Source: Bacteroidota bacterium
GTDB lineage: Bacteria; Bacteroidota; Ignavibacteria; UBA10030
Assembly (NCBI GenBank): GCA_025454835.1
Contig: JALONQ010000005.1
Coordinates: 120,071 to 184,070, forward strand
Length of the DNA stretch: 64,000 nt
Direction of reading: 5' to 3'
This document shows positions 8,194 to 55,019 of the stretch, one piece after another (position 1 is the stretch's first letter; each line of letters starts with the position of its first letter). A program made the translations under genes and the position numbers. Below the pieces are notes generated by a model, which saw only the letters and a list, made by a program, of their open reading frames with translations, had not been told where the DNA came from and did no database searches.

Positions 8194-8197
8194 AAGA

Positions 8198-8343
8198 GAT
8201 GGAAGTATGAGGATGTAAGATATAAGACTGAACCAAAAAGCCATTCACTCTTCAGAGCTTCGGTCTTTCATCTTTCTACTTCCATCTCACATCTTTCATC
8301 TTACATCTTACATCTTTCATTTCAACATCTCTCATCTTTCATC
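8198..8343. repeat. Inverted heptad array
   Basis: Left GATGGAA GTATGAG GATGTAA GATATAA GACTGAA; right 11 units of consensus TTWCATC. Confidence 0.9.
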
Positions 8344-11474: not shown

Positions 11475-11576
11475 TGCAGCTTCGCTGACCGAGGCCCGCC
11501 GGGACACGATCTGCCGATCGCCGGCCTCTCCTTACCGTTCCCTCTTTTGTCACCCCAACTACGCCGGGAGTCATCC

Positions 11577-13451
11577 ATGCCGATCATTTTCCGAATTCTG
11601 CACGCCTTCATCATGGCCCTCACGCTCACCGCGTCGACCCTGGCTCAGGGCTTCGACATGAAGGAGCGGTACACCAAGAACGAGGTCATGATCCCGATGC
11701 GCGACGGCGTGAAGCTGTTCACCTCCATCTACACGCCCAAGGACCTCTCGACGCCCCGGCCGATCTTGATGATGCGGTCGCCGTATTCGGCCCGGCCGTA
11801 CGGCGAGGACCAATTTCCGCGCTTCCTGGGTCTGCAGGGGCGCTACTACGCCGAACGCGGCTACATTCTCGTGACGCAGGACGTTCGGGGGCGCTTCATG
11901 TCGGAGGGAACGTTCATGGACGTGCGACCCGTGAAGACGAAGCGGACCAGCCCGAAGGACATCGACGAGACGACCGATACGTACGACACGGTCGACTGGC
12001 TCGTGAAGAATGTCGCCGGGAACAACGGCCGCGTCGGCATTCATGGGATCTCGTACCCCGGATTCTACGCTTGGATGGGAACGATCAACGCCCATCCGGC
12101 GATGAAGGCCACCTCGCCGCAAGCTCCGGTCTCACAGTGGATGTCGGGAGACGACTTTTCCCATAACGGCGCCTTCCTCGTCTCGCATGCGTTCCAGTTC
12201 TACGCGAACTTTGGATGGCCGCGGCCCGAGCCGCTGAAGGAATATCCCCGCCGCTTCCAGCTGCCGCATCCCGACGGCTATCGGTTCTTCCTCGATCAGG
12301 GAGCGCTCGCCAATCTGAACACCCGCTTCCTCAAGGACTCCGTCGAGTTCTGGAACCTCATCACCCAGCACGGCACGTGGGACGACTTCTGGGCCGAGCG
12401 GTCCGTTCTTCCACATCTCAAAGCCCTCACGCCCGCCGTGCTCGTGGTCGGAGGCTGGTTCGATGCGGAGAATCTGTACGGGGCCCTGCATAGCTACAAA
12501 GCCGCGGACGCCAACACCACCAACAACCAGATCCGTCTCGTGATGGGCCCCTGGTCCCATGGCGCGTGGCAGGCCCCCGGCCTCGACTCGCTGGGCGACA
12601 TCAAGTTCGGTTCGGCGACCACGGAGTGGTTCACAAACAGCGTGATCGGCCCCTACTTCGACCACGAATTGAACGGTGGGCCCGAGCCGAAGCTGGCCGA
12701 GGCGACCGTCTTCATGACGGGAGCCAACGAATGGCGTCAGCTTGACGCCTGGCCCCCGCGCGTCGAGAAACGCCTGCTCTACTTTGGCGATCGTCGAACG
12801 CTTTCGTGGTCGAAGCCTCCCCGGACGAAGACCGCCTACGACGAGTACGTGAACGACCCCCAGGCTCCGGTCCCCTACTCCGAAGAGATCCGTCCGTGGT
12901 ACAACCCGGCTTACATGCTCGGCGACCAGCGATTCGCGTCGCGTCGGCCGGATGTGCTGACCTATCAGACCGACGTGTTGGAGGAGGACGTGACGATCGC
13001 CGGACCGATCACCGTGCGACTGACGGCCTCCACCTCCGGGACGGACTGCGACTGGATCGTGAAGGTCATCGACGTCTTTCCCGACACGACGACGACGCCG
13101 CGCAACACGGCGGCCCGTGGTGTCCGGCTCGAAGGATATCAGATGATGGTGCGAGGTGACGTGCTGCGCGGGAAGTTCCGTAACTCGATGTCAAAGCCGG
13201 AGGCGTTCAAGCCCAACGTGCCGACGGAGATCACGTACGACCTGCAGGATGTCTTCCACCGATTCAAGAAGGGGCACCGCATCATGGTGCAGGTGCAGAG
13301 TTCGTGGTTCCCGAAGATCGACCGCAACCCCGGCGTCTTCATGGACATCTTCAAGGCCAAGGATGACGACTTCCAGAAGACGACGCAGCGGGTATATCGG
13401 AACGGGGCAGGTGTGTCGGGAGTGGAGCTGGGTGTGTATCGAGGAGAGTAG
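11577..13451 (+). CDS. CocE/NonD family hydrolase
   Basis: MRDGVKLFTSIYTPKD, GIHGISYPGFYAWMG, GGWFDAENLYG; signal peptide. Confidence 0.9.
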   Translation: MPIIFRILHAFIMALTLTASTLAQGFDMKERYTKNEVMIPMRDGVKLFTSIYTPKDLSTPRPILMMRSPYSARPYGEDQFPRFLGLQGRYYAERGYILVTQDVRGRFMSEGTFMDVRPVKTKRTSPKDIDETTDTYDTVDWLVKNVAGNNGRVGIHGISYPGFYAWMGTINAHPAMKATSPQAPVSQWMSGDDFSHNGAFLVSHAFQFYANFGWPRPEPLKEYPRRFQLPHPDGYRFFLDQGALANLNTRFLKDSVEFWNLITQHGTWDDFWAERSVLPHLKALTPAVLVVGGWFDAENLYGALHSYKAADANTTNNQIRLVMGPWSHGAWQAPGLDSLGDIKFGSATTEWFTNSVIGPYFDHELNGGPEPKLAEATVFMTGANEWRQLDAWPPRVEKRLLYFGDRRTLSWSKPPRTKTAYDEYVNDPQAPVPYSEEIRPWYNPAYMLGDQRFASRRPDVLTYQTDVLEEDVTIAGPITVRLTASTSGTDCDWIVKVIDVFPDTTTTPRNTAARGVRLEGYQMMVRGDVLRGKFRNSMSKPEAFKPNVPTEITYDLQDVFHRFKKGHRIMVQVQSSWFPKIDRNPGVFMDIFKAKDDDFQKTTQRVYRNGAGVSGVELGVYRGE

Positions 13452-13476: not shown

Positions 13477-13597
13477 AGCAGGCAGTAAGCAGGAACCTTC
13501 AGGTTGTCGGCAGGCTAGCGTCAGGGATCCCTCCCGGGATATTTGTCCTTGGATCTCATCCTGCCCGCAACGTGCAGGCACCTGCCTGCTGCCTACT
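13477..13597. repeat. Long-armed palindromic intergenic element, copy A
   Basis: Left arm 13477-13514 and right arm 13560-13597 are imperfect inverted repeats of 38 nt (AGcAGGCAGTAAGCAGG..CCTtCAGGTTG..GGCAGG). Confidence 0.85.
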
Positions 13598-13665
13598 TCT
13601 CCTTGGATCTCTCCCGTCCGCTTTCTGTCATCTCACAACCTGATTTCGTAGATTGGTGAGCGGCA

Positions 13666-13767
13666 AGTAGGCAGTAAGCATGTACCTTCAGGGTTGGGGC
13701 AGGACGAGATCTGTTGTGCAAGACCTGCGCCTGCCGCTGACCTGTCGGCACCTGCTTACTGCTTACT
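13666..13767. repeat. Long-armed palindromic intergenic element, copy B
   Basis: Arms 13666-13703 and 13730-13767, same arm sequence as copy A (AGTAGGCAGTAAGCATGTACCTTCAGGGTTGGGGCAGG). Confidence 0.85.
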
Positions 13768-13817: not shown

Positions 13818-16535
13818 ATGTCCTCTACTGAACTCCCCAAAACGTACGACCCCAAAAGCGTCGAAGACCGCTGGTACGCCTCGTGGGAACAGGGGCGCCA
13901 TTTCCACGCTTCCGTCCATCCTGACCGCAAGCCTTACACCATCGTCATCCCTCCGCCGAACATCACCGGCATCCTGACGATGGGGCACATCCTCAACAAC
14001 GCGATCCAGGACATTCTCATCCGGTACAAGCGGATGCAAGGGTTCGAGGCCTGCTGGGTCCCGGGCACCGACCACGCCGGCATCGCGACGCAGAACGTTG
14101 TCGAGAAGGCGCTGGCCCGCGACGGTGTTGATCGCCGCGAGTTGGGGCGCGAGAAGTTCGTCGAACGGGTCTGGTCGTGGCGCGAGGAGTACGGCAAGAC
14201 GATCATCCGCCAGCTGCGCAAACTTGGCGTCTCGGCCGACTGGGACCGCGAACGGTTCACGATGGACGAGGGCCTGTCGGAGGCGGTCAAGGAAGTGTTC
14301 GTGCGGATGTTCGACAAGGGGCTCATCTACCGAGGCAAGTACATCGTCAACTGGTGCCCGTTCCACCAGACCGCGCTGTCCGACGACGAAGTCGACACGA
14401 ACGAGACCGAAGGAAGTCTCTACTATGTCCGCTACCGCATCGAGGGGACGAACGACGTCGCCGTGGTGGCGACGACGCGCCCGGAGACGATGCTGGGCGA
14501 CACCGCGCTCTGCGTGAACCCCAAAGACGAGCGCTACAAGCATCTCATCGGCCGCACGGCCATCCTGCCGATCGTCGGGCGCCGACTGCCGATCATCGCC
14601 GACGATTACATCGATACCGGCTTCGGCACGGGCTTCATGAAGGTGACGCCCGCGCACGACGCGAACGACTTTCTGCTCGGCCAGCGCCACAACCTGGCGC
14701 ACATCAACGTCATGACGACCAACGGCGTCATGAACCACCACGCTCCGTCGCCGTACGAGGGGCTGGACCGGTTCGAGTGCCGCAAGCGGCTCGTGAAGGA
14801 CCTGCAGGAGCAGGGGTTCATCGAGAAGATCGACAAACACACCGTCAACCTCGGCAAGTGCTACCGCTGTCAGACCGTCATCGAGCCGTACTTGTCGGAC
14901 CAGTGGTTCGTGCGGATGCAGCCGCTGGCCAAGCCGGCGCTCCGCGTGGTGAAGAACGGCTCGATCAAGTTCTACCCCGAGCGATGGGTGAAGGTGTACG
15001 AGCACTGGATGGACAACATCCGCGATTGGTGCATCTCGCGACAGCTCTGGTGGGGCCACCGCATTCCCGTCTACTTCGCGGACGACGGCCGCTACACGGC
15101 GGCGCGGAACGAGGCCGAAGCACGCACGAAGCTGCAGCTTCCGGCCGACGCCCCCGTGCGCCAGGATGAGGACGTGCTCGACACGTGGTTCTCGTCGTGG
15201 CTCTGGCCGATGTCGGTGTTCGGATGGCCGGAGGATTCGAAGGACCTGCGCTACTTCAACCCGACGGACACGCTCGTGACGGGCCCCGACATCATCTTCT
15301 TCTGGGTCGCCCGGATGGTGATGTCGAACATGGAATTCATGCGCGACATGCCGAACCATCGCGGCAAGCCGCGCCATACCGATGAGGAGCTCATCCCTTT
15401 CCGGAGCGTCTACTTCACGAGCATCATCCGTGATTCCCAGGGGCGCAAGATGAGCAAGTCGCTCGGCAACTCGCCCGACCCGCTCGCGGTCATCGACGAG
15501 TACGGCGCCGACGCATTGCGCTACACGATGGCCTACCTCGCACCCCTCGGACAGGATGTGCTGTTCTCGACGGAGAGGTGCGAGATCGGCCGCAACTTCG
15601 CGAACAAGGTCTGGAACGCCGGCCGCTTTCTGCTGATGAACGCCGACGAGATCTGCGGCGCACGGCCTTCGCTCGACGAGATGCCGCTCGACAAGATGGA
15701 CCTGGCCGACCGCTGGATCCTTTCGCGTCTGCAGTCAACGATCCGCGACTACCATGCGCAGCTGGGCGAGTTCCGGATCAACGAAGTGAGCAAGCTGCTC
15801 TACGACTTCATCTGGCACGACTTCTGCGATTGGTACGTCGAGCTCGCGAAGGCCCGATTCACCGGGGACGAACCCTCCGAAGTCAAGAAGGCCGTCGTCA
15901 CGCGTGCTCTGTGGGTGTTCGACCAGGCGCTGCGTCTTCTCCATCCCTTCATGCCGTTCATCAGCGAGGAACTCTGGCAGCACCTCACCGACCGAAAGGG
16001 GGCCCTCCTGATCCGTGCCGCCTTCCCCACGGTCGACGACGACTGGATCGAGGAGAGCACTGAACGGCGCATGGCCTTCGTCCAGCGCCTGATCGAGTCG
16101 GTCCGGACCATCCGCGGTGAGAACAACCTCCCCCCTGGCAAGGAACTGCGACTGCTGGTGATCGCCGACGCCGAGCGCGCCGACACCGTCACGCACTACC
16201 AACGCTACATTTCACGGCTCGTCAAGGCTTCGAGCGTTGAGCTCATCACCGCGTCGCAGAAGCCGAAGCTGGTCGCTGGCTCCGTCGTCGACGGAACGGA
16301 ACTCTACGTTCCGCTGGCCGGGTTGATCGACCTCGGTGCTGAGCGGGCGCGCGTCGAAAAGGAGATCGCACGACTACGCGGACTCGCCGACGGGATCGCG
16401 AAAAAGCTCGAAAATGAGTCGTTTGTCCAGCGCGCACCGAAAGAGATCGTCGAGAAGGAACGGGAGAAGCGCGCTTCGGTGTTGGAGAACATCGCCAAAT
16501 TGGAAGAGAACCTGGCGTCGCTTCGGGACGCCTGA
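13818..16535 (+). CDS. valS: Valine--tRNA ligase
   Basis: PPPNITGILTMGHILNNAIQD, GTDHAGIATQ, KMSKSLGNSPDP, C-terminal coiled coil. Confidence 0.96.
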   Translation: MSSTELPKTYDPKSVEDRWYASWEQGRHFHASVHPDRKPYTIVIPPPNITGILTMGHILNNAIQDILIRYKRMQGFEACWVPGTDHAGIATQNVVEKALARDGVDRRELGREKFVERVWSWREEYGKTIIRQLRKLGVSADWDRERFTMDEGLSEAVKEVFVRMFDKGLIYRGKYIVNWCPFHQTALSDDEVDTNETEGSLYYVRYRIEGTNDVAVVATTRPETMLGDTALCVNPKDERYKHLIGRTAILPIVGRRLPIIADDYIDTGFGTGFMKVTPAHDANDFLLGQRHNLAHINVMTTNGVMNHHAPSPYEGLDRFECRKRLVKDLQEQGFIEKIDKHTVNLGKCYRCQTVIEPYLSDQWFVRMQPLAKPALRVVKNGSIKFYPERWVKVYEHWMDNIRDWCISRQLWWGHRIPVYFADDGRYTAARNEAEARTKLQLPADAPVRQDEDVLDTWFSSWLWPMSVFGWPEDSKDLRYFNPTDTLVTGPDIIFFWVARMVMSNMEFMRDMPNHRGKPRHTDEELIPFRSVYFTSIIRDSQGRKMSKSLGNSPDPLAVIDEYGADALRYTMAYLAPLGQDVLFSTERCEIGRNFANKVWNAGRFLLMNADEICGARPSLDEMPLDKMDLADRWILSRLQSTIRDYHAQLGEFRINEVSKLLYDFIWHDFCDWYVELAKARFTGDEPSEVKKAVVTRALWVFDQALRLLHPFMPFISEELWQHLTDRKGALLIRAAFPTVDDDWIEESTERRMAFVQRLIESVRTIRGENNLPPGKELRLLVIADAERADTVTHYQRYISRLVKASSVELITASQKPKLVAGSVVDGTELYVPLAGLIDLGAERARVEKEIARLRGLADGIAKKLENESFVQRAPKEIVEKEREKRASVLENIAKLEENLASLRDA

Positions 16536-38929: not shown

Positions 38930-38962
38930 AACGGGAAGCCCATGAGAAGAGCTTCCCGTTTT
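38930..38962 (+). terminator. Rho-independent terminator
   Basis: AACGGGAAGC ccatgagaaga GCTTCCCGTT TT. Confidence 0.85.
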
Positions 38963-39004
38963 CCTTTCCCGGCCGGATTCCTGAATATTTCTCTATATTG
39001 GCCC

Positions 39005-39871
39005 ATGGCATCGGCATTGCACCCTGAGGTCCTTGAAGCGATCCGGCGCGCGCTCGCGGAGGACGTTGGCGGCGGCGACGTAACATCGCTCGCGACGATC
39101 CCCGACTCCGCTATGGCCCGGGGGTTGTTCCGGGCGAAGAGTCCCGGTGTCGTGGCAGGACTGGAAGTGGCTGCTGAGGTCTTCCGGGCATTGGACTCTG
39201 GCTCGCAGTTCGAACCCCACGTCATTGACGGTCAGACGGTTGACCAAGGGACGCACCTCGCCACCGTTTCGGGACCGGCACGCATCATTCTGACGGGCGA
39301 ACGGACGGCGCTCAATTTCCTTCAGCGCATGTCGGGCATCGCCACGATGACGAATGCGTTCGTCAAGGCCGTCGAAGGCACTCGGGCGATCATCCTGGAC
39401 ACTCGAAAGACCGCGCCAGGACTCCGGCAGTTCGACAAGCTCGCCGTTCGGCTCGGGGGTGGCACTAATCATCGGGCCGGATTGTTCGATATGGTGCTGA
39501 TCAAAGACAACCACATCGACGCGGCCGGTGGGATCACGGCGGCGATCCAGGGAGCCCGGTCCTTCTCGGGTGGGCGATTGCCCATCGAGGTGGAATGCCG
39601 TACGTTGGACGACGTCCGGGAGGCCTTCGGGCTGAAGGTGGACCGTATCATGCTGGACAATATGGACCTCTCGACGATCCGGAAGGCCGTGCATCTCGTG
39701 GATGGACGGATCCCGCTCGAGGTCTCCGGAAACGTAACACTCGAGACTGTCCGGGCCTATGCCGAAACGGGCGTGGACCTCATCTCGGTGGGGGCGTTGA
39801 CGCATTCGGTGAAGGCGATGGATATTAGTATGAAGATCGTGACGAGCGAGAAGAGAACCAGTATGCAGTAG
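39005..39871 (+). CDS. nadC: Nicotinate-nucleotide pyrophosphorylase (carboxylating)
   Basis: LAEDVGGGDVTS, ERTALNFLQRMSGIAT, DTRKTAPGLR, GGGTNHRAGLFDMVLIKDNH. Confidence 0.95.
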   Translation: MASALHPEVLEAIRRALAEDVGGGDVTSLATIPDSAMARGLFRAKSPGVVAGLEVAAEVFRALDSGSQFEPHVIDGQTVDQGTHLATVSGPARIILTGERTALNFLQRMSGIATMTNAFVKAVEGTRAIILDTRKTAPGLRQFDKLAVRLGGGTNHRAGLFDMVLIKDNHIDAAGGITAAIQGARSFSGGRLPIEVECRTLDDVREAFGLKVDRIMLDNMDLSTIRKAVHLVDGRIPLEVSGNVTLETVRAYAETGVDLISVGALTHSVKAMDISMKIVTSEKRTSMQ

Positions 39872-39986
39872 GCAAGGACCATCAGGTTGTGACAGGCAGA
39901 GGTCCAGGGACAGGGATCCGGGAATAGGATCTGTGTCCCATGACTGCCACCTGTCACATCCTGCCTGCTCGTGCCTACTGCCGACT
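39860..39986. repeat. Long-armed palindromic element, copy C (between nadC and nadA)
   Basis: Arms AGTATGCAGTAGGCA..CAGGTTGTGACAGG and CCTGTCACATCCTG..TGCCTACTGCCGACT. Confidence 0.8.
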
Positions 39987-49993: not shown

Positions 49994-50006
49994 AGATCGT
50001 TAGAAG

Positions 50007-50132
50007 GCATGCAGTAAGCAGGTACAATCGGGTCGTAGCAGGAGGAAGTCCGAGGGACAGAACGAGGATATGGACACTTCCTCCACGATCTCAGCCTGCC
50101 ACAGCCTGCGGGCACCTGCACACTGCTTACTC
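50007..50132. repeat. Long-armed palindromic element, copy D
   Basis: GCATGCAGTAAGCAGGTACAATCGGGTCGTAGCAGG ... CCTGCCACAGCCTGCGGGCACCTGCACACTGCTTACT. Confidence 0.75.
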
Positions 50133-51335
50133 CCCCTCTCCCTGCATTCTCTTCGCCACCGTTTCATTCTGCTCCCACACCCGCAACAGATTCTCTCCGC
50201 AGATCTTCTTGATATCTTCTTCCGAGTACTGGCGACGCAGCAACTCGGCGATGAGGTTCGGATAGTCCGCCACCGATTTCAACCCGATGGGGAGCGAATC
50301 GCCAACCCCGTCGAAATCGGACCCGATCCCGACGTGGTCGATACTCGTCATTCGCACGATGTGGTCGATGTGGTCGGCCACGTCGCTGACCATTGCGTAA
50401 GGGGTCGGATGCTGGCGTTGATACTCTTTGATGATCTCCTGGGCGCGGGGATCCGTGAACCGTAGACCTTTTGATCGCAGGAGTCGCATGACCTCCCGAC
50501 GGGCTGATTCCTCATACTCTTGAAATGTCGCGGTCAAGAAGGACGAGCCGAAATTCACCATGACGACGCCCCCGTTGGCCGCAATGGCCTTGATGAGCTC
50601 GTCGGAGAGATTTCGCTCGAACCCGGGAGTGAAGGCCCGGCAGGACGAGTGCGAGGCGATCACGGGCGAACGAGAGACCCGCAGGCAATCGTCGACGGCC
50701 GCGTCGGTCAGATGCGAGACGTCGACCATGATGCTCCATCGATTCATCTCCCTCACCACCTCCTCGCCGAACGGACTCAGCCCGCCCCAAGGACGAGTCG
50801 TGTCGTAGGCGGCGTCGCTGATGTGGTTCGCCTTCGCGTGCGCCAGCGTGATGTAGCGCACGCCGCGGTCGGCAAAATACCTCACGTTCTCGAGTTTCCG
50901 TTCGATCGGTGAGCCATTCTCCATCCCCATCGGAAGGGAGATGAGCCCTTTGGCCGCGTTAGCCCGGATGTGGGCCGGCGTGGTCGCAAGGGCGAACTTG
51001 TCAGGGTGCCACTTGGCCATGTTCTCAACGCCCATGATGAGCGTGTCGGCCAGTGCCTTGGCCCCACGGTCCTCTTTTTCGGACGGCACGTAGATGGCCA
51101 TGAAAGGCGCGTCAAGCCCCCCCACCCGGGCGCGAGGATAGTCGAATTCGCCTCCCGGCGCCGACTTGGAGAGGTCTTCCCATTTCTCGCGAATGCGGTA
51201 GGGAGCATCCACATGACCGTCGATGATGATGTATTGCTGGGCCAGCTGGCGGGCCCGCGTGAGCACGGGGTCTGCTGGTTGAGCGTCGACGACCGCAACC
51301 GCGAGCAGAAGAAGGAGACCCAAGAAGCGTTTCAT
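50127..51335 (-). CDS. Membrane dipeptidase-like protein (M19 family)
   Basis: Signal peptide; IIDGHVDAPYRI, LAHAKANHISDAA, VDVSHLTDAAVDDCLRVSRSPVIASHSSCRAF, IGSDFDGVGD. Confidence 0.92.
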   Translation of the reverse strand: MKRFLGLLLLLAVAVVDAQPADPVLTRARQLAQQYIIIDGHVDAPYRIREKWEDLSKSAPGGEFDYPRARVGGLDAPFMAIYVPSEKEDRGAKALADTLIMGVENMAKWHPDKFALATTPAHIRANAAKGLISLPMGMENGSPIERKLENVRYFADRGVRYITLAHAKANHISDAAYDTTRPWGGLSPFGEEVVREMNRWSIMVDVSHLTDAAVDDCLRVSRSPVIASHSSCRAFTPGFERNLSDELIKAIAANGGVVMVNFGSSFLTATFQEYEESARREVMRLLRSKGLRFTDPRAQEIIKEYQRQHPTPYAMVSDVADHIDHIVRMTSIDHVGIGSDFDGVGDSLPIGLKSVADYPNLIAELLRRQYSEEDIKKICGENLLRVWEQNETVAKRMQGEGE

Positions 51336-51553
51336 GATGATTGACGTGGTGATGGACGCGCTTAGAGTAGCGCGATTCGAGGTGAAATGCAATGTCCAGC
51401 CGCGTTCAGCCGTCTTGATTCTGGCCGCATTTCTCGCCAAGTTCGGTCACGCGAAACATCAACTGAAACGGACCGCCGCGGAGACGCGAAGACGCCAGTG
51501 GCCCATCTTGGCGTCCGTTCGAGCGCACTGGTCACACTTGTGGACTGAGCCCT

Positions 51554-52259: not shown

Positions 52260-55019
<2,760 letters not shown>

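Follow-up and report, generated by a model that had tools for sequence, protein, structure and literature searches.

The 64,000-nucleotide stretch analysed here (the window) contains several long imperfect palindromes that lie between genes and share the sequence of their arms. In form they look like mobile repeats of the MITE or REP kind, and the question is whether they are such repeats or, rather, signals belonging to the gene ends that they adjoin.

Elements of the window

The window holds exactly four copies of the family, denoted here A to D and given without strand; all four had been listed in the first-pass annotation, with positions right within about a base. The surrounding genes, here and at the other copies, were delineated by a simple codon-usage gene caller made for this analysis.

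Element A (positions 13477–13597, 121 bp) begins 25 nt past the stop codon of a gene for an S15/PepX-type peptidase (11547–13451). The same gap contains a second copy, element B (13666–13767), a 102-bp short form without about 21 bp of the centre. It ends 50 nt ahead of the ValRS coding frame (13818–16535) and, at 214 nt from the upstream stop codon, is one of the few family copies that are not close behind a stop.

Element C (39860–39986, 127 bp) is situated in the gap between nadC and nadA. The final codons of nadC (38942–39871, plus strand) lie inside the element, which provides the TAG stop codon (39869–39871); the C-terminus reads ...SMQ*, and this end of NadC reaches beyond the end of NadC in the congener. 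Element D (50006–50131, 126 bp) is located between convergent genes. It starts 12 nt past the stop codon of a PD40 gene, and its right arm provides the stop codon (50127–50129, minus strand) of the gene for an M19 membrane dipeptidase (50127–51440, minus strand).

The inverted arms described initially are present, but not at the suggested length of 38 nt: in elements B and C they extend ungapped over 47–60 nt at 72% complementarity. In RNA folding, elements A, B and C are far below their dinucleotide shuffles (z-scores of −5.5, −5.4 and −6.8, respectively), and element D folds more weakly (−2.65). A co-directional gap at 8196–8323 of the window harbors a 128-bp palindrome of the same form as A to D but of different, GATGTAA-like words.

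Family size and distribution

Homology of the copies had been suspected in the first-pass annotation, which proposed a covariance-model scan of the genome. Model R1, trained on 18 copies after a pattern search, indeed recovers a multi-copy intergenic palindromic family, whose members in the draft genome (3.23 Mb, 47 contigs) are 23 full copies and a half copy. The five copies outside the training set score 58–87 bits (E about 1e-17 to 1e-11). The arm pattern has 30 matches in the genome against 7 in the reversed control, and hence a chance origin is excluded. Most copies are 120–128 bp long. Two are about 102 bp and lack the centre, namely element B and the copy at C16:94679, the latter with an altered outer left end. 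The copies are spread over 10 or 11 of the 47 contigs; none was found on the 470-kb contig C1, either in the whole-genome scan or in sampled parts of this contig.

The half element (G000:C40:24676–24782, where G000 denotes this genome) has an intact left arm and a right arm of AATTCGA/TCGACAATC words; it is a mosaic of two palindrome families. A weak model match, L208 4514–4618, is a mosaic of other words and was excluded from the count. A small palindrome, CCTGCCTGCC...GGCAGGCAGG, abuts one end of two copies, the right end at G000:C3:107746 and the left end at G000:C44:74475. It occurs inside other palindromes too and is apparently a separate short repeat. The Rfam scan of the elements yielded no family above the threshold, matches to microRNA precursors being far below it.

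No family copy was found in the congener (G001), the nearest relative, by the R1 scan. Among 98 genomes of the order, real R1 matches were seen in only two other genomes, and a weak match in one. B4_bin.17 (G029) has a single 99-bp copy (L125, 900–998), the sole one elsewhere in the taxonomic family. The match in G023 was rejected as an independent copy: its contig is 99.98% identical to G000:C3 over 5.7 kb, and therefore it is the same locus, the contig being either conspecific or misbinned. In an exact scan covering about 85,000 species, the only matches were the MAGs G023 and B4_bin.17, each deposited under Bacteroidetes, plus an archaeal one, L126, a chance match within a coding sequence. 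No related copies were found in viral contigs scanned with the exact pattern or in plasmids and phages searched with distant BLAST. Given these scans, the family is one of a single species, or nearly so, and its conservation is measured below among copies of one genome, the only one that carries the family. The stretch of this genome homologous to the site of the B4_bin.17 copy (G000:C16, about 54313–54410) is diverged and has no model match; a CACAGAG palindrome is situated about 170 nt further on.

Structure of the arms

The alignment of 47 arms yields the rough consensus AGTARGC AGTARGC AGGTAC NN TCAGG NNNN GGCAGG C N GA N RTC NNN GGACAARGATC. The element as a whole is bounded by AGTARGC and GCYTACT, and A-GTAR at both outer ends is a GTAG-type tag with a degenerate last position.

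The element is asymmetric, with arms of two types, GTCAGG and GGGCAGG..ACAAGAAC. The linkage between arm positions is strong (the likelihood is 5.7 SD above the column-swapped null), and leave-one-out typing gives a lod above 2 in 21 of the 23 copies. There is less certainty that the two types are combined within each element (1.5 SD above re-paired arms). The left arm is purine-rich and the right arm is C-rich and G-poor on either strand (C 0.38, G 0.19); the left flank is also purine-rich (0.65) and the right one pyrimidine-rich (0.68).

Position relative to genes

Of the 24 copies, 21 are in co-directional gaps and three in convergent ones, and none is in a divergent gap. Within co-directional gaps, copies are separated from the upstream stop codon by a median of 8 nt and from the downstream start codon by 50 nt (Wilcoxon p = 0.001). 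The upstream gene takes its stop codon from the element in nine or ten copies, as TAR at positions 3–5 or 10–12 of the arm. The orientations of the copies with respect to the gene are split 16 to 7 (p = 0.09), and no preference is claimed. The location at 3′ ends, taken by itself, is also expected if insertions are tolerated there, and this niche is shared by REP and ERIC repeats.

Conservation and age of the copies

The closest pair of copies is about 0.73 identical over all columns, and the genealogy is nearly star-like, hence there has been no recent movement. No structure is seen in the genealogy in the contig orientation, and slight structure is seen with oriented arms (P = 0.03).

At that, the columns are conserved very unevenly. 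Under uniform decay, a simple null model, 2.9 of the 119 columns are expected to exceed 0.9 identity, whereas 31 are observed, the maximum in 2,000 simulations being 10. Conversely, 25 columns are at or near random (identity below 0.35) versus 0.7 expected, some of these variable columns being added by the loosely aligned centre. Since dead copies would have lost the blocks along with everything else, we infer selection on most copies in place. Thus, judging by the alignment, the copies are apparently old and kept by selection.

Orthologous gaps in the congener

The G001 orthologs were located via the C-termini of the upstream genes, and the sequence past their stop codons was read. None of the orthologous loci has an R1 element. 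The empty sites that the first-pass annotation proposed to seek in relatives were found in part. In three cases where a neighbour is conserved, the gap is almost empty, at about 29, 3 and 51 nt versus 183, 214 and 145 nt here, but other gaps hold palindromes made of different words: CGCAAAG behind nadC, CACGAAG at C37:28813 and CGCGAAT at C3:168998 (loci with such palindromes are L085, upstream of nadA, and L142 and L132, behind orthologous genes). In the gap corresponding to C47:9952, the conserved leader is kept and no such element is present.

A putative signal of gene 3′ ends

With a probability of about 0.45, the elements are best explained as old, no longer spreading, lineage-specific, asymmetric imperfect palindromes, selectively kept as 3′-end signals, that is, putative two-way terminators or insulators, or else definers of mRNA 3′ ends. 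This reading rests on the position next to stop codons, the lack of copies in divergent gaps, the fixed blocks beside randomised columns, the two arm types, and the absence or replacement of the element in the congener.

One ancestral element would have been propagated by some agent and then fixed as a 3′-end signal. A cellular factor would recognise the conserved blocks, either in DNA or in the 3′ UTR of the transcript, and as a result transcription would be ended or insulated in both directions, or mRNA 3′ ends would be set. One conjecture is that Rho could be loaded at the right arm, given its C-rich and G-poor composition on either strand.

Should recognition of the blocks extend to every copy, they would form a sequence-specific 3′-end signal, one that is undescribed for this phylum in the searchable literature; a literature search for the element words as sequences gave no match. 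Such a signal, if true, would help to account for many long palindromes of odd words at gene ends in this genome. Moreover, the exchange of word families in one gap between two congeners makes the choice between a selfish repeat and a terminator testable by RNA mapping.

Other palindromes at gene ends

We surveyed gaps of 90–700 nt in about 0.65 Mb of this genome around the copies. Significantly palindromic were 82 of 291 gaps. Divergent gaps make up 3 of these 82 versus 38 of the 209 others (p = 0.0007), and the difference persists without the family considered here, denoted AGTARGC by its outer word (3/65 versus 38/203, p = 0.005). In the 65 palindromic gaps outside the family, the median span is 111 nt, and 50 are purine-rich on the left and pyrimidine-rich on the right (p = 2e-5). 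Word palindromes similar to the family are common at 3′ ends in this genome.

The CRCARAG word pair, for one, occurs 193 times in this genome versus 7 in the control; its palindromes are formed by the words CACAGAG, CGCAGAG, CACAAAG and CGCAAAG, an example being G000:C3:138616–138832. Of 297 sampled genomes of Bacteroidota, 52 contain a three-word pattern of the CRCARAG class, for which the control gave almost no matches. Pairs of AGTARGC are found in 32 of 396 genomes, often as pure heptamer runs and mostly without the inner blocks of the family, and here there are some control matches.

The AGTARGC family is probably one of several palindrome word families doing the same job in this genome. 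A broader generalisation, tentative and rather doubtful, is that the Bacteroidota have a patchy class of palindromes at gene 3′ ends, built from lineage-specific words of 7 to 9 nt (AGTARGC, CRCARAG, CACGAAG, GATGTAA, TGTCGA, CGCGAAT) and acting as two-way terminators or insulators in place of the hairpin with a U-tract. In this case the slot would be retained and its word family would change from one congener to another; the AGTARGC palindromes, with recognition blocks of their own, would be one such family.

Mobile repeats

An alternative to be taken seriously, albeit an unlikely one, is a non-autonomous mobile repeat similar to MITEs or ERIC and spread by some transposase. The copies would survive behind genes since insertions elsewhere are harmful, and the blocks would be remnants of transposase recognition without a function for the host. 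Indeed, the elements are dispersed, palindromic, intergenic and limited to one species, and like MITEs they are non-coding, with inverted repeats at both termini. The nearly empty congener gaps and the altered C-terminus of NadC also look like traces of insertion, the latter at a gene end. However, the check for target-site duplications proposed in the first-pass annotation yielded none: the best score is 9.0, with a mean of 8.6 and a maximum of 13.0 in the re-paired null. The low identity even of the closest pair and the almost star-like relation also speak against mobility, and blocks that stay intact while the variable columns are randomised are not expected of dead copies. Plasmids, phages and viral contigs, as noted above, are without related copies. 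The arm matches form pairs about 100 bp apart or are single, and no autonomous version was seen, although in a draft assembly a longer repeat could drop out at contig ends.

Pairing of the arms

It is improbable that the elements are plain bidirectional terminator hairpins, in which the RNA structure is selected and the shared sequence reflects common origin only. While the full elements fold strongly, are situated at 3′ ends and have other palindromes as counterparts in some of the same gaps of the congener, the compensatory changes across copies that the first-pass annotation had looked to are nearly absent, with a double change in only one of the 16 consensus pairs. Conservation thus does not concern an RNA helix as such. 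At mirrored variable positions, pairing (0.315) does not exceed the chance level (0.362), and it is the sequence blocks that are conserved, not the pairing. In elements A, B and C, the scan revealed no T-tract terminator spanning the element with a T-tail after the main stem, which counts against a classical terminator; one small hairpin was found inside element A, no more than by chance. Selection against arm pairing was also considered, as pairing is below chance (p about 0.01), and rejected, since the asymmetry of the element, with its two types of arms, can largely account for the effect.

Binding sites and REP elements

It is very improbable that the elements are chromosome-organising or recombinase binding sites (similar to matS, parS or attC) tolerated at gene ends. 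Sequence-specific symmetric blocks and the distribution of copies over contigs, with none on C1, would fit such sites, but the congener has no element, unlike the situation with chromosome-organising sites, a close tie to stop codons is not expected, and the 10–11 bp helical spacing considered for the CAGG blocks was rejected, the periodicity of the information profile not being significant (P = 0.27). Integron attC sites (VCR) are imperfect palindromes of about 123 bp directly behind a stop codon, with a genome-specific consensus. The family shares the size, the position and the genome-specific consensus; on the other hand, it has neither the RYYYAAC/GTTRRRY core nor a cassette array, and has ordinary chromosomal genes as neighbours, nadC and the gene preceding valS among them.

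Still less credible is a REP/REPIN family moved by a resident RAYT (Y1) transposase: the genome does have two PF01797 genes, the element ends with GTAR as GTAG-REPs do, and REPs likewise lie less than 20 bp from the ends of genes, to which they provide TAG stops (PMC3733652), but single 50-nt arms form no hairpin, their folding being on the level of shuffled sequences (mean z 0.06), neither RAYT gene, sought at the suggestion of the first-pass annotation, is flanked by the element (one flank ends at the contig end), the gene on C33 is flanked by a different GTAG hairpin, and compensatory changes, frequent in REPIN spacers (PMC3116915), are nearly absent here. At the C33 locus, L082 (G000:C33:1–2116), the flank of the Y1 (PF01797) transposase gene is GTAGGAAAGAAACCCGAAGGGTTTC, a sequence similar to GTAG-REPs that has no relation to the family.

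Thus, of the initial likeness to MITE and REP, the form and the niche stand, and membership does not. With no target-site duplication, no arm hairpin, no element in the transposase flanks and almost no compensatory changes, the family occupies a niche similar to that of REP and ERIC without belonging, by the features tested, to MITE, REP/REPIN or ERIC. Such repeats should not be classed as MITE or REP by appearance alone.

Comparison with known systems

The ERIC (IRU) repeats of enterobacteria are dispersed 127-bp imperfect palindromes in transcribed intergenic regions, occasionally fused to gene ends, with TA termini and target-site duplication (PMC2229807). The family is similar in being a dispersed intergenic imperfect palindrome of about 120–127 bp, sometimes fused to gene ends. 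It is set apart from ERIC by the described features: it has no TA termini with TA duplication, its arms are of two types, and its fixed blocks alternate with randomised columns.

GTAG-REPs lie behind genes and donate the stop codon (PMC3733652). Their dimers, or REPINs, resemble the family in the GTAR outer ends, a distance from the preceding stop codon of mostly no more than about 30 bp, stop donation and avoidance of divergent gaps. Unlike them, the family has no arm hairpins and no copies at RAYT loci, and its full copies number only 23, no two of them being close. The TIRtrons, Y1 transposases with long TIRs (PMC3733652), provide another parallel, as their TIR families also have long inverted arms, moderate copy number and species specificity; however, the two Y1 genes of this genome have no such arms in the sequence searched, which on one flank reaches the contig end.

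Finally, direct repeats of the TAACTGA heptamer are known in the Beggiatoaceae, the Cyanobacteria and five Bacteroidetes, mostly ahead of start codons (PMC4679880). These, too, are words of 7 nt in intergenic regions, able to provide stop codons and patchily distributed across phyla including the Bacteroidetes, whereas the words of the family make up the outer portion of inverted arms located past stop codons.
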